Positions 5,004 to 10,839 of a stretch of 34,732 bases of DNA are shown piece by piece. Location: NCBI GenBank assembly GCA_015272465.1, contig JACYLR010000015.1, positions 1 to 34,732 of the forward strand. Reading direction: 5' to 3'. Positions within the stretch are counted from its first letter, which is position 1; the number at the start of each line of letters is the position of its first letter. Under the pieces are notes generated by a model. The model saw only the letters and a list, made by a program, of their open reading frames with translations, was not told where the DNA came from and did no database searches. The stretch comes from Gloeomargaritaceae cyanobacterium C42_A2020_066. Lineage in GTDB: Bacteria; Cyanobacteriota; Cyanobacteriia; Gloeomargaritales; Gloeomargaritaceae. The position numbers and the translations under genes are program-made.

Positions 5004-7448
5004 CTAGCTCAAGACCGTATCTCCCAGTAACTGAGACACGCGCTGGTCTAGTTCCTGCTTCAGATAAGGCCAGGTTACCAAGCTAGGGTCTTGGGACATC
5101 AGTTGAGTTGCAGCCTGGCGTGCAGACTCCAGTACCTCCTGATCCTCCATCAAGCTGGCTAGGGCCAAATCCGGTAGACCGGCTTGGCGCGTCCCCAAAA
5201 CCTCCCCCGGCCCTCGCAACCGTAAATCCATCTCCGCAATCCAAAAACCGTCCTGGGATTGCTCCAACACCTTGAGACGCTGGAGGGACAGTTCATTCTG
5301 GTTGCTGCTGATCAACAGACAGTAGGACTTGTGGCTACCGCGGCCCACCCGCCCCCGCAACTGGTGCAATTGAGCCAGACCAAAGCGCTCGGCGTGTTCA
5401 ATCATCATGACAGTGGCGTTGGGCACATCCACCCCGACCTCTACAACTGTTGTGGAGACTAGAATCTGGGTCTTGTGGTCGCGAAAGGCTCGAATAGCCT
5501 CTTCCTTTTCCGCTGAAGACATCCGCCCATGCAGCAAACCTAATTGGAATGTGGGAAAGACCACTTCCCGCAGCCGCTCGTATTCCTGAATGGCGGAGCG
5601 CAACTCAATTTTTTCCGATTCATCGACCAGGGGCAGGATGATATAGGCCTGACGCCCCTGCACCACCTCCCGCCGGATCAGATCCTGGGCAAAACGGCGG
5701 TCACTGGCTCGCATCACCGTGGTTTGGATCGGTTGCCGACCCGGGGGCAGTTCGTCGATCTGGCTGACATCCAGGTCACCGTGTAGGGTCAGGGCCAGGG
5801 TACGGGGAATCGGCGTGGCGGTCATAGTCAGCACATGCGGGTCAAGGCCCTTCTGTTGCAGCCGTGCCCGCTGCGCTACCCCAAACCGGTGTTGCTCGTC
5901 GATCACCACCAGGCCCAACCGCTGAAAATTGACATCCTCTTGGATCAGGGCATGGGTGCCCACAACCAGGGACAGTTCTCCCGTTTCCAACTGAGCCAGG
6001 GTCTGGCGGCGGCCGGCCGGCCGGGTGGAACCCGTCAGCAGGTCTACGGAGAGATGCAGCGGTGTCAACCAGGCCACCAGTTTGGCGTAGTGTTGCTCGG
6101 CCAGGACTTCGGTGGGGGCCATCAGTGCGCCCTGATACCCGGCTTCCAGGGCGGCCAGCAGGGCCATGACCGCCACCACGGTTTTGCCGGAACCCACATC
6201 CCCTTGTACCAGGCGCTGCATCGGCGTGTTTTTTTGCAAATCCCGCAGAATCTCCTGGATCACCCGTTCCTGGGCAGTGGTGAATCGGAAGGGGAGTTGC
6301 TGACGGAACTGCTCTAGCAGACGCCCCTCCAGGGTGATGGCGGGGGTAGCAGCGGCGGCGGCCCGTTGCTGATGACGGCGTTGCAGAAAGGCCAATTGCA
6401 GGTAGAGAAATTCATCAAAAACCAGGCGACGTTTGGCGGCCTTTTCCTGGTCGGGACTATCCGGGTTGTGGATCTGGGTCAGGGCAGCGCCTAGGGGCAG
6501 AAGTTCCCACGCCCGACAGAGGCCGGCCGGGAGCGGGTCGGGGAGTTGCTGAGTCAGGGGCAGGACGGTGTTGAGGGTCTGGCGCAATCCCAGGGCTTTG
6601 ACCCCAGCCTTGAGGGGATAGATTGGGATAATCCGGCCGGCCGTGGTCTCGTCCCCATCGATTACCTCGATCACCGGTTCCTGGAGGGTTTTGTCGTACT
6701 TACCTTCCTTGACTAGGCCCGACACGGCGACCGTGGCCCCCCGGGGATAGGCGCGTAGTTGCTGCTCCTGCCAGGCCCGGTTGGTGTAGCGCTTACCGGC
6801 AAAAAAGCGGCTGAGCTTGAGACGCCCACTGGGGTCGGCCACCACCACTTCCAGGATCGACAGTTTGGGATTTTTGGGGCTGGTGAAACACTGGCAACTG
6901 CGGATTGTCCCCACAACGGTGACCGTCTCCCCCGGTTGCAAGTCCCGAATCAGCCGCCGATGGCTATAGTCCACGTAGCCCCGTGGGTAATAGCGCAACA
7001 CCTGACTGAGGGTACTGAGGCCCAAGGCGTTCAGTTGCTGTCGTTGGTAGGGTTTGAGTACCTTGACCTGATCCAGGGGCATCTCCCAGGTAACGGTGTG
7101 GCTGGGGGGCGGCGCGGGGGCAGGTTCCTTTACCTGGGGCCGAGCTGGAGGAACTGCGGCCGGCCGGCCGGTCTGGGGCAGGGCTTCCACCAACCAGCGC
7201 ACACGGGTGAGGAGATCCTGCCGGGCTTCCGGGGGCAAGCAGGGGTAGTTGGCCAGTTCAGTCGTTAAAATCTGCCATCGGCCGAACTGCCCCCTGGGGA
7301 GGCGATCCGGGGGAATCTGTTGCAGTTGCAAGCGGAGAAAATCGTGGAAGGTGTACTCGCGGCCCTGGAGATTGGTAAACCCAGTCTTGGCCTCCAGGGC
7401 TAGGGCTTGTTGAACTCGATCGCCGTTCCACTCCACGCGTTTGCTCAT
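5004..7448 (-). CDS. recG: ATP-dependent DNA helicase RecG
   Basis: RecG is a superfamily 2 helicase that remodels stalled forks and branched recombination intermediates. The 814-residue product has an N-terminal extension of about 120 residues with a Pro/Ala-rich linker (95-117), as is usual in cyanobacterial RecG. The wedge/OB domain follows (about 125-265), then the motor: Walker A GDVGSGKT at 416-423, DEQH at 517-520 with HRFGV, TATPIPRTL at 543-551, then STTVVEVGVD and the QLRGRVGRG motif of the second motor domain. It starts at ATG 7448, 12 bases after the stop of the channel-like gene upstream, so it is probably the last gene of a run starting with the bestrophin gene. Confidence 0.96.
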   Translation of the reverse strand: MSKRVEWNGDRVQQALALEAKTGFTNLQGREYTFHDFLRLQLQQIPPDRLPRGQFGRWQILTTELANYPCLPPEARQDLLTRVRWLVEALPQTGRPAAVPPARPQVKEPAPAPPPSHTVTWEMPLDQVKVLKPYQRQQLNALGLSTLSQVLRYYPRGYVDYSHRRLIRDLQPGETVTVVGTIRSCQCFTSPKNPKLSILEVVVADPSGRLKLSRFFAGKRYTNRAWQEQQLRAYPRGATVAVSGLVKEGKYDKTLQEPVIEVIDGDETTAGRIIPIYPLKAGVKALGLRQTLNTVLPLTQQLPDPLPAGLCRAWELLPLGAALTQIHNPDSPDQEKAAKRRLVFDEFLYLQLAFLQRRHQQRAAAAATPAITLEGRLLEQFRQQLPFRFTTAQERVIQEILRDLQKNTPMQRLVQGDVGSGKTVVAVMALLAALEAGYQGALMAPTEVLAEQHYAKLVAWLTPLHLSVDLLTGSTRPAGRRQTLAQLETGELSLVVGTHALIQEDVNFQRLGLVVIDEQHRFGVAQRARLQQKGLDPHVLTMTATPIPRTLALTLHGDLDVSQIDELPPGRQPIQTTVMRASDRRFAQDLIRREVVQGRQAYIILPLVDESEKIELRSAIQEYERLREVVFPTFQLGLLHGRMSSAEKEEAIRAFRDHKTQILVSTTVVEVGVDVPNATVMMIEHAERFGLAQLHQLRGRVGRGSHKSYCLLISSNQNELSLQRLKVLEQSQDGFWIAEMDLRLRGPGEVLGTRQAGLPDLALASLMEDQEVLESARQAATQLMSQDPSLVTWPYLKQELDQRVSQLLGDTVLS

Positions 7449-7460
7449 GACCTCCTGCGC

Positions 7461-8687
7461 TCACCTTATTGTAGACTCCCGCACCGTCTGGTTTGTGAGC
7501 GGTTTGGTCTGGAGGTTTTCCAACGCACTAAACTCCATCAGAGATTGGATACTGCGCTGGTTGATTTCAAGGGCGCGCAGGGGAATGGCCATGTTAGCGC
7601 AGGTGTAGCCCAGGAAGAAAACACCAAATGCCACCTTGTCAAAGCGGCGTGCCAACTGTTCTCGCCCACGCCGATCGTAGAGATAAAGGGAAATTGTGGA
7701 CTGGGTGAGGGTGAGAAAAATTGTTGCCATCCCCAAGCCATTGATCATGTCCATGAGAGACACAACCCCCACATCCGGCAGCAAACTCGCCCCCAGGTAG
7801 GTGTTGGCCACGGCGGCAAAGAAGGCCCCCACCCCTAGGCCAAAGCGCGGGTCCACATCCGTTGGTTTAATCCACAGGGCCAGAATGGCAATGGCCACCG
7901 ACCCAAATAGAGCCTGAAATAGCCGTAGGTAAAAGCCTAGGTCTGCCCGATCAATGAGGATGCCAAAGACAAACTGGGAATAGGTGAGCCGGTCAGCCGA
8001 CACGGAAGGGTCTCCAAAGTTCGACCGGTAAGTATGCAGCTTGGCGAGGGCAGTGGTTTCGCGCACCACATAGCCCGGCAGTTCCACCCGCGAGCTAACC
8101 CCTGAAGCTTGGGTATCCGGAACCCAGAGCAGAGCATCGGCCGGCCGGACGAGATCCTCCAGGTTGAGGGTCAGGAGGTGACTATCCAGGGGGAATCGCC
8201 CCACTTCAAACAATTTGCTGACCTCGATCTCCATCCGGTACAACTCGTAGCGCTGCCGCTGGGCACCAGCCGGGGTCGTGATCGAACGCAGCAGCACCTG
8301 GCTGAGGATGGTGCCACTGGGAATTTGCAGGCTCTGTCCGGGCGTCAAGGGCTGTCCCGGCGGCTCCACCCAGTTCAACCACAGATACAGATCGGCGCGC
8401 CAGTGACTATCCCGAATGGATAACTCGGGGACGCGGTCAATGTAGAGGCCAATCCGCACCTCGGCCGGCCGGGCATCCGTTGAGGGGCGTTCCGGTTGTG
8501 TGCGGCCTGGTTCAGCCCGGTTAGTGGCCAGTCGCGCTTCCTGGCGTTGCAGTTGAGCTTGGGCACTGATGGTTGTCAGGTGACGAATCAGGTAGGCCCC
8601 GCCGGAGAAGAAGCCCAAGTGAAATACCGCCCAGAGGCCAATCAGGAAGTTTTCAACGCGACTGATGCGTTCGGGCTGCTCGTCCAC
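7461..8687 (-). CDS. Divergent pentameric ligand-gated channel-like membrane protein
   Basis: The 408-residue protein has an N-terminal membrane anchor (about 12-36), a polar linker rich in Q/R/P (about 45-75), a beta-type region and four C-terminal membrane helices (about 251-273, 282-303, 309-335, 351-371). Several parts line up by eye with prokaryotic Cys-loop-type channels such as GLIC: the first strand VRIGLYIDRV followed by DLYLWLNW, then GRFPLDSHLLTLNLE (164-178) matching the canonical FPFD Cys-loop segment, a pore-helix-like stretch ending in a Leu-Pro turn, and a following helix starting near TxxD/LMDMI. The region that normally carries loop A with a WxPE/D motif before the Cys-loop is shortened. 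The start is GTG 8687, two bases from the bestrophin stop, with no clear ribosome-binding site, suggesting translational coupling. The ligand and ion are unknown, and it might be a non-conducting sensor. Confidence 0.6.
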   Translation of the reverse strand: MDEQPERISRVENFLIGLWAVFHLGFFSGGAYLIRHLTTISAQAQLQRQEARLATNRAEPGRTQPERPSTDARPAEVRIGLYIDRVPELSIRDSHWRADLYLWLNWVEPPGQPLTPGQSLQIPSGTILSQVLLRSITTPAGAQRQRYELYRMEIEVSKLFEVGRFPLDSHLLTLNLEDLVRPADALLWVPDTQASGVSSRVELPGYVVRETTALAKLHTYRSNFGDPSVSADRLTYSQFVFGILIDRADLGFYLRLFQALFGSVAIAILALWIKPTDVDPRFGLGVGAFFAAVANTYLGASLLPDVGVVSLMDMINGLGMATIFLTLTQSTISLYLYDRRGREQLARRFDKVAFGVFFLGYTCANMAIPLRALEINQRSIQSLMEFSALENLQTKPLTNQTVRESTIR

Positions 8688-8689
8688 GG

Positions 8690-9730
8690 TTAGGGGCTAG
8701 GGGTTGAAGTGTATTCAGTCTGCAACACAACCGCCCCGCCCGGCGATTCCTGCCCTCTCTGATCATCGAGACCCTGGGGGAGATTATCCCGGTTGTGTCC
8801 GTCCAGGTCTTCCGGATTGAGGGTTACACCTGGCTCGAAGAGCCGAAAGTTGCTCGTCAGTTCCAGGTCACTCCTCAGGTTGCGGCACAGGTCATCCAGG
8901 GGTAGGTCATTGGGATCCAGGCCGAAGGGATCTTCAATCTGATTCCCCATTTCCTCCAGGGCAAACAAGATAAAGCTGACAATAAAGACCACCAGAAACT
9001 GCCAGCGGAGCACATGAGCATCCAATTGAAACGGCAGACAAAGGATGTATATCAGAATCAGGCGCTTGAGATAGATGGCGTAGGCCAGGGGAATGGGCGT
9101 CGTGGCAATGCGCTCACAACTGGTCAGGCCCTCGACCACCGTGCTGATCAACGTATTGAGTTCATAGAGTCGAGTGGTATCCAGCCGGCCGGCCGCATGT
9201 TGGCGCTGGAGATAGTCCTGCACCCAGAGGGTTAGGTAAAGGGGCCTGTGGGTGGCCGTTTCCAGTTGGGCAATCACCTCGGCCGGCAGGAGGGCCTGAA
9301 GTTCATTGAGGCTGGTGTCTTTGCGGAGGTGGAGCTTGATGGCTTGGGCTAGGGCCGCCAGTCCCTGGAGGATCGTCCCCTTAGCGTCCGCATCCTCTGG
9401 ACTGGGTTCGGCAATACACATCCGAATGCCCCGCCCCAGATTTCGCAGGCTGATCACCAAGGTGCCCCAGGCCCGCCGCCCTTCCCAGTAGCGGTCGTAG
9501 CCCGTGTTCGTGCGGAAGACCAGCAGCAAGCCCAGCACCAGGTTAAAGGCGACGTTGGAGGTGATCGATCCCATCACACTCAGATCGGGCGTCCAGACCT
9601 GGTGATGCAAGTAGACAACCAGGCAACTGAGGGTACCTGCACCTATAACCCGCAGAAAAACCGCAGACAGGGCCGAACCCTTGAGGCGCAAGGCTAAGGC
9701 CCACCACCTCAGTTCCCGCTGGATGTTCAT
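8690..9730 (-). CDS. Bestrophin-family anion channel protein
   Basis: The 346-residue membrane protein matches the bestrophin/UPF0187 family of pentameric, mostly chloride- or bicarbonate-conducting channels. The N-terminal half carries FRTNTGYDRYWEGRRAWG (residues 72-89), the hallmark 'RTNxxYxRWWEGR'-type segment. The central part carries CERIATTPIP (205-214), and the C-terminal half EEMGNQIEDPFG (259-270) followed by the D-rich cytosolic tail. Hydrophobic helices lie near 22-45, 55-73 and 223-257. The last 45 residues are polar and look disordered. Cyanobacterial and plastid bestrophins have been linked to ion balance around photosynthesis. It is followed after two bases by the channel-like gene and then recG. 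Confidence 0.9.
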   Translation of the reverse strand: MNIQRELRWWALALRLKGSALSAVFLRVIGAGTLSCLVVYLHHQVWTPDLSVMGSITSNVAFNLVLGLLLVFRTNTGYDRYWEGRRAWGTLVISLRNLGRGIRMCIAEPSPEDADAKGTILQGLAALAQAIKLHLRKDTSLNELQALLPAEVIAQLETATHRPLYLTLWVQDYLQRQHAAGRLDTTRLYELNTLISTVVEGLTSCERIATTPIPLAYAIYLKRLILIYILCLPFQLDAHVLRWQFLVVFIVSFILFALEEMGNQIEDPFGLDPNDLPLDDLCRNLRSDLELTSNFRLFEPGVTLNPEDLDGHNRDNLPQGLDDQRGQESPGGAVVLQTEYTSTPSP

Positions 9731-9933: not shown

Positions 9934-10839
9934 TTATGACTGACCCGCACTTGTCTGAAAATCCAGAAGCAGTTGCTCCAGGTGATCTGGCCCTGCTTGG
10001 TAGACCTGACCGCAGAAATGACAGGTGACTTCCGCTCCGTTATCCTCCACCAACATGCTGCGGATCTCCGTCTCACCCAAAATCTTGATGGCGCCCAACA
10101 CCCGATCCATCGTGCAGCCGCAGTGGAACCGCACCAACTGGGTCTCCGCTAACCATTCCAGGCCCAAATCCCCCAAAACCCCCTGGATAATGTCCCCCAA
10201 CTGTCGGCCGGCCCTGAGCTGTGGTGTAAAGCCCTGGAGACTCGCCACCCGCTCTTCCAGGAGGGCCACCAACGCCTCGTCCCGCGCCGCCTTAGGTAAG
10301 ACCTGCACCAGCAACCCCCCGGCGGCGTGGACTTCCCCAGCTTGCAAGTACACCCCCAATACCAAAGCGGAGGGGGTTTGCTCCGAGGCCACCAAGTAGG
10401 CGGTCAAGTCATCGCCAATTTCCCCAGATACCAGCCCCACCGTACTGCAATAGGGATAGCCATAACCGTTGTCCCGCACCACGTAGAGGTAACCCTCCGC
10501 CCCCACAGCGCCGCCCACATCCAGCTTGCCTTTTTCATTGGGCGGCAACTCCACCCCAGGGTTCTCCACGTAGCCGCGCACGGTGCCATCCCGGCCAGCG
10601 TCCACCAACAAGCTACCCAGGGGACCATTGCCTCGCACCCGGATATTGACCCGTGCCTCAGTGCGTTTCATGCTAGAGGCCAACAACAGGCCGGCCGTCA
10701 TGGTTCGTCCCAAGGCGGCGGTGGCCACGTAGGACAACCCATGCCGCTGGCGGGCCTCCTGCACCAGATGGGTGGTGACCACACCGACCGCCCGAATCCC
10801 CCCCTCGGCTGCTGTGGCCCGCAACAGTTGGTCTGCCAT
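9934..10839 (-). CDS. hslO: Redox-regulated chaperone Hsp33
   Basis: Hsp33 is a cytosolic holdase activated by oxidation of a zinc centre at its C-terminus. The 301-residue length is typical. The C-terminal zinc ligands are present as CGC (in FHCGCTMDR) and CHFC (in VTCHFCGQVY), spaced as in the family. The N-terminal domain shows TAALGRTMTAGLLLASSMK and GNGPLGSLLVDA, both characteristic. ATG 10839 is the only sensible start. The gene is divergent from the pot operon with 141 bases between them, and it is followed by the hairpin at 9896-9913. Confidence 0.96.
   Translation of the reverse strand: MADQLLRATAAEGGIRAVGVVTTHLVQEARQRHGLSYVATAALGRTMTAGLLLASSMKRTEARVNIRVRGNGPLGSLLVDAGRDGTVRGYVENPGVELPPNEKGKLDVGGAVGAEGYLYVVRDNGYGYPYCSTVGLVSGEIGDDLTAYLVASEQTPSALVLGVYLQAGEVHAAGGLLVQVLPKAARDEALVALLEERVASLQGFTPQLRAGRQLGDIIQGVLGDLGLEWLAETQLVRFHCGCTMDRVLGAIKILGETEIRSMLVEDNGAEVTCHFCGQVYQAGPDHLEQLLLDFQTSAGQS

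Follow-up and report, generated by a model that had tools for sequence, protein, structure and literature searches.

A bestrophin gene and a divergent Pro-loop receptor homologue in close succession upstream of recG in a Gloeomargaritaceae genome

A bestrophin gene and the gene of a divergent pLGIC (Pro-loop receptor) homologue, read in the same direction and separated by 2 bp, probably form an ordinary polycistron that is specific to this lineage and encodes two independent channels. Judged by genome comparison, their adjacency is not a conserved functional unit. The window, the whole stretch of 34,732 nucleotides that was analysed, is contig C94 of a 2.73-Mb genome of an uncultured cyanobacterium, which belongs to a second genus of the Gloeomargarita family.

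Layout of the locus and identity of the two genes

On the minus strand the order is hslO, 203 bp, bestrophin, 2 bp, pLGIC, 12 bp, recG, with the following features:

9934..10839, minus strand: hslO (Hsp33), matching Pfam HSP33 (1e-88) and the NCBIfam Hsp33 equivalog (2e-97); same direction as the bestrophin gene and 203 bp upstream of it
8690..9730, minus strand: bestrophin, 346 aa, ATG start, matching Pfam Bestrophin_2 (E=2e-85) and KpBest 6iv1 (E=3e-35)
8688..8689, minus strand: 2 bp that separate the stop codon of the bestrophin from the GTG of the pLGIC, without a Shine-Dalgarno site before the GTG
7461..8687, minus strand: divergent pLGIC (Pro-loop receptor) homologue, 408 aa, GTG start, recognized by phmmer and by profile
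5004..7448, minus strand: recG, 814 aa, above the cut-off of NCBIfam RecG equivalogs

An earlier note on this DNA had described two unrelated five-part channel families encoded back to back, with the second start, a GTG, two bases past the bestrophin stop and recG 12 bases further on; both families are confirmed and the spacing is as claimed. The GTG at 8687 is the earliest start permitted in the pLGIC frame, because an in-frame TAG lies four codons upstream.

The gene at 9730-8690 is, on its sequence, certainly a bestrophin: the match to Pfam Bestrophin_2 is full-length (residues 4-289) and scores 287 bits against a cut-off of 27. Aligned to KpBest, its neck residues are L64, L68 and F72; the middle position, L68, aligns with I66 of KpBest, and the Phe of the anion-selective I-F-F neck is absent. 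The L-L-F neck also occurs in the aligned relatives. In KpBest the neck is I-I-F and the channel is selective for Na+; its mutation I66F favours Cl-, and the Cl--selective animal bestrophins have an I-F-F neck (PMC8496536). By alignment, the neck of the window bestrophin is nearer to that of Na+-selective KpBest (IIF) than to that of Cl--selective animal bestrophins (IFF).

The tree places the window bestrophin as sister to the tandem bestrophins of Gloeomargarita (support 99/95) and the genome's second bestrophin, encoded on contig C170, as sister to the other copy of the family (support 94/95). Each copy is placed with its family counterparts, so the window bestrophin is old and vertically inherited. 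A foreign origin was also considered for it and is ruled out by the tree.

The product of the second gene matches no Pfam family, and its match to NCBIfam LIC (8.5e-5) lies under that model's cut-off. Similarity extends over the extracellular domain and M1-M3: phmmer finds the GLIC-GlyR chimera 4x5t at 5e-7, and a profile of 18 sequences, made of the window pLGIC and mostly its relatives, finds GLIC structures at ~1e-41. The Pro-loop receptor superfamily is defined by an absolutely conserved Pro-loop proline; the M1 proline is the most conserved residue of the TM helices but is not absolute (PMC4795631). The Pro-loop proline is present as P166 and is invariant in 18 relatives, and the Pro-loop aspartate D168 and the pre-M1 arginine R247, the residues of the superfamily's salt bridge, are invariant in the alignment of relatives. 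M1 reads GFYLRLFQALFGSVAIAIL and lacks the proline, as do the relatives L003 and L009. By three tests (phmmer, profile and the hallmark residues), the predicted protein is a Pro-loop receptor. Its branch in the tree is long (2.29), and a search of the genome contigs with this protein alone returned no relative. A single-sequence AlphaFold model was of low confidence (pLDDT 41.9).

Where the glycine receptor has P-A-R at the pore mouth, the aligned pLGIC has D(-2'), P(-1') and R(0') in the prime numbering of M2 positions. As aligned, this mouth is mixed and does not clearly carry the signature of an anion channel or of a cation channel. A chloride or bicarbonate role, which had been suggested for the pair, is unsupported because the bestrophin neck is L-L-F rather than I-F-F and the pLGIC pore mouth, with its Asp at -2', is mixed.

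Many cyanobacterial pLGIC matches (L259, L262, L258, L260, L025 and others) sit in open frames of 600-1300 residues and, given that span, are probably fused to further domains.

Distribution in the Gloeomargarita family and other cyanobacteria

In the seven relatives from the family, no pLGIC was found with either the single protein or a broad profile. Six of them carry two tandem bestrophins and a further copy elsewhere, the tandem lying between trpS and aroQ in those examined; one of the tandem copies is in fragments in G241. In the seventh relative, which is 83% complete, the further copy is the only one seen. The tandem is also present in Gloeomargarita sp. SKYG116. The open frames of the tandem bestrophins (L032, L033, L061-L064, L092, L095) overlap, and each of the two copies has a clade of its own. 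recG occupies another neighbourhood in the relatives examined, where it is divergent from yidC. Same-strand adjacency of bestrophin and pLGIC occurs in 0/7 family members and in none of the other flanks examined. Since pLGIC is missing from all seven relatives and recG lies elsewhere there, the bestrophin-pLGIC-recG order is lineage-specific. What the locus adds is a highly divergent pLGIC from a genus of the Gloeomargarita family; the gene is missing from the relatives of that genus.

In a phylum sample of 386 cyanobacterial genomes, a pLGIC is detectable with the window protein in 37 and a bestrophin in 118. Within 1.5 kb on either side of 30 pLGIC and 30 bestrophin loci, the two are neighbours only in G000, G348 and G205. 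Around 80 named cyanobacterial bestrophin loci, covered up to 8 kb per side, there is no adjacent pLGIC, and a partial pLGIC lies ~7.6 kb away at one of them; 45 further pLGIC loci, some from genomes already sampled, have no bestrophin within 1.5 kb. In the flanks examined, those from this sample and those of the 80 bestrophin and 45 pLGIC loci, no other genome has a co-directional pair. The survey for conserved adjacency that the earlier note had called for thus places the tandem in the window genome only, among the flanks examined. The literature searches made returned no report of a bestrophin-pLGIC neighbourhood and no paper naming Gloeomargarita together with bestrophin.

Within 201 Cyanobiaceae genomes, bestrophin is present in 38, pLGIC in 65 and both in 27; this co-occurrence is above expectation (odds ratio 8), with genome size and kinship as confounders. 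In three of the 27 genomes holding both, namely G348, G205 and G181, the two genes stand head to head. One clade of the tree contains the pLGICs of G348 and G205, and another contains that of G181, so these pairs probably have two independent origins. Random gene order predicts 0.046 adjacent pairs and gives P ~0.001 for two or more, under a null that ignores clustering of accessory genes and assumes gene density. At one of these pair loci, which lies beside the sdh genes in genus g61 (the g61 locus), G201 and G538 have bestrophin only, and G257 and G272 have only pLGIC and a 360-aa gene. Because either gene occurs there without the other, the association in Cyanobiaceae is above the simple null but loose.

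The g61 stretch beside the sdhA/sdhB-like genes (L213-L218) varies among bestrophin only, pLGIC only and both. In the four genomes compared there, a gene of ~360 aa (L213:11023-12108; L214, L215, L217) comes immediately after the pLGIC; the product of this gene has only a weak match to a solute-binding protein (SBP_bac_3, E=0.04).

Expression of the pair and competing explanations

Termination-reinitiation across the bestrophin-pLGIC junction is plausible from the 2-bp gap, and the layout makes it plausible that the genes share a transcript and that their translation is coupled. Coupled synthesis had been proposed in part on the missing ribosome-binding site. The spacing keeps coupling plausible; the other half of the argument fails, since 12 of the 17 window genes checked also have no Shine-Dalgarno site, which makes its absence before the GTG uninformative. 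The missing site was dropped as evidence for coupling after this baseline. recG is preceded by AGGAG. Promoter-like sites are as many as in shuffled sequence and terminator-like sites are about twice the shuffle mean; none is decisive.

In the polycistron favoured here, the vertically inherited family bestrophin has come, together with a divergent pLGIC gene, to sit just upstream of recG, as comparison with relatives shows. One transcript probably covers the genes, and the GTG cistron would be started by ribosomes that have just finished the bestrophin or by Shine-Dalgarno-independent initiation, the mode that most genes here seem to use. Each protein would form its own pentamer, as expected from the families; the pLGIC would carry an extracytoplasmic ligand-sensing domain, and the bestrophin would be a separate channel. 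Counted in favour are the absence of pLGIC from relatives that have their bestrophins and recG elsewhere, the Shine-Dalgarno baseline, the 80 named bestrophins without an adjacent pLGIC and the mutual independence of the two genes at g61. The head-to-head excess of two origins and the co-occurrence in Cyanobiaceae are counted against it.

The earlier note suggested a dedicated two-channel unit as an unproven reading. In one form of it the two channels would be made together; the pLGIC would sense protons or a metabolite as its extracytoplasmic ligand and conduct one ion, and the counter-ion would pass through the bestrophin. The 2-bp spacing speaks for it, as do the Cyanobiaceae head-to-head neighbours, which exceed the random number and come from two different pLGIC clades. 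Such a unit is nevertheless unlikely: the tandem occurs in one genome only, the seven relatives keep bestrophins elsewhere and have no detectable pLGIC, either gene stands alone at g61, no bestrophin stands in the 1.5-kb flanks of the 45 further pLGIC loci, and the pore residues give no sign of a cation/anion pair. Alternatively, the two genes might share a landing site for accessory genes, in which variable loci gather membrane-protein genes that meet more often than at random without working together. The sdh-side g61 locus, holding bestrophin only, pLGIC and the 360-aa gene only, or all three, looks much like this, but hslO and recG are ordinary housekeeping genes and at the window locus no gene for mobility was recognized, which leaves the explanation decidedly unlikely here. 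It is very unlikely that bestrophins and pLGICs recur as pairs in cyanobacteria because a bestrophin shunt works jointly with a ligand-gated channel, with unrelated pLGIC clades having been set beside bestrophins at least three times independently. Little is known about what prokaryotic pLGICs do natively, and a neighbour gene common to independent lineages would be one of few leads on it.

An assembly chimera or a foreign insert could also have joined unrelated genes. The split of the genome into 246 contigs and the lack of any close relative of the pLGIC would both fit, but GC and GC3 are uniform and the kinship of the bestrophin fits the family. The palindrome GGCCGGCC also bears on this point. 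The window (1-34732) has 53 copies of it, where base composition predicts 1.8, and 10.8 kb of contig C170 (L212) has 13; it often sits inside the 10-mer CGGCCGGCCG (35 copies). It lies in the pLGIC gene (8139-8146, 8463-8470) and in the bestrophin gene (9187-9194), and it is absent from the four Gloeomargarita loci tested. HIP1 (GCGATCGC) has 0 occurrences where GGCCGGCC was counted (the window and C170), and GGCCGGCC appears to be a highly iterated palindrome distinct from HIP1. GC3 and the resident copies within both genes speak against a chimeric contig and against a recent insertion of foreign DNA, and this explanation is extremely improbable.

Comparison with known systems

The window pLGIC shares with GLIC and other prokaryotic Pro-loop receptors (PMC4795631) the Pro-loop proline and aspartate, the pre-M1 arginine and, by alignment with the GlyR transmembrane domain, a four-helix transmembrane part. 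Its identity to aligned cyanobacterial relatives is ~25% or less. It differs from GLIC and those other receptors in that it has no M1 proline, carries Asp at -2' and Arg at 0' in M2, lacks His at 11' (the position of H235 in GLIC), and has an N-terminal hydrophobic stretch with a long linker.

The bestrophin resembles KpBest and the bacterial bestrophins (PF25539) in its full-length match and in a hydrophobic neck with Phe last; it differs in having L-L-F instead of I-I-F and a C-terminal tail of ~50 residues past the Pfam domain. The Gloeomargarita tandem between trpS and aroQ holds its closest kin and likewise places a second channel gene directly after a bestrophin, but that second gene is a bestrophin paralogue, the locus is another one and the genomes are without pLGIC. 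Although their orientation is divergent, their subfamilies are distant and either gene may be missing at the g61 locus, the Cyanobiaceae pairs of G348, G205 and G181 have the identical two families as direct neighbours.
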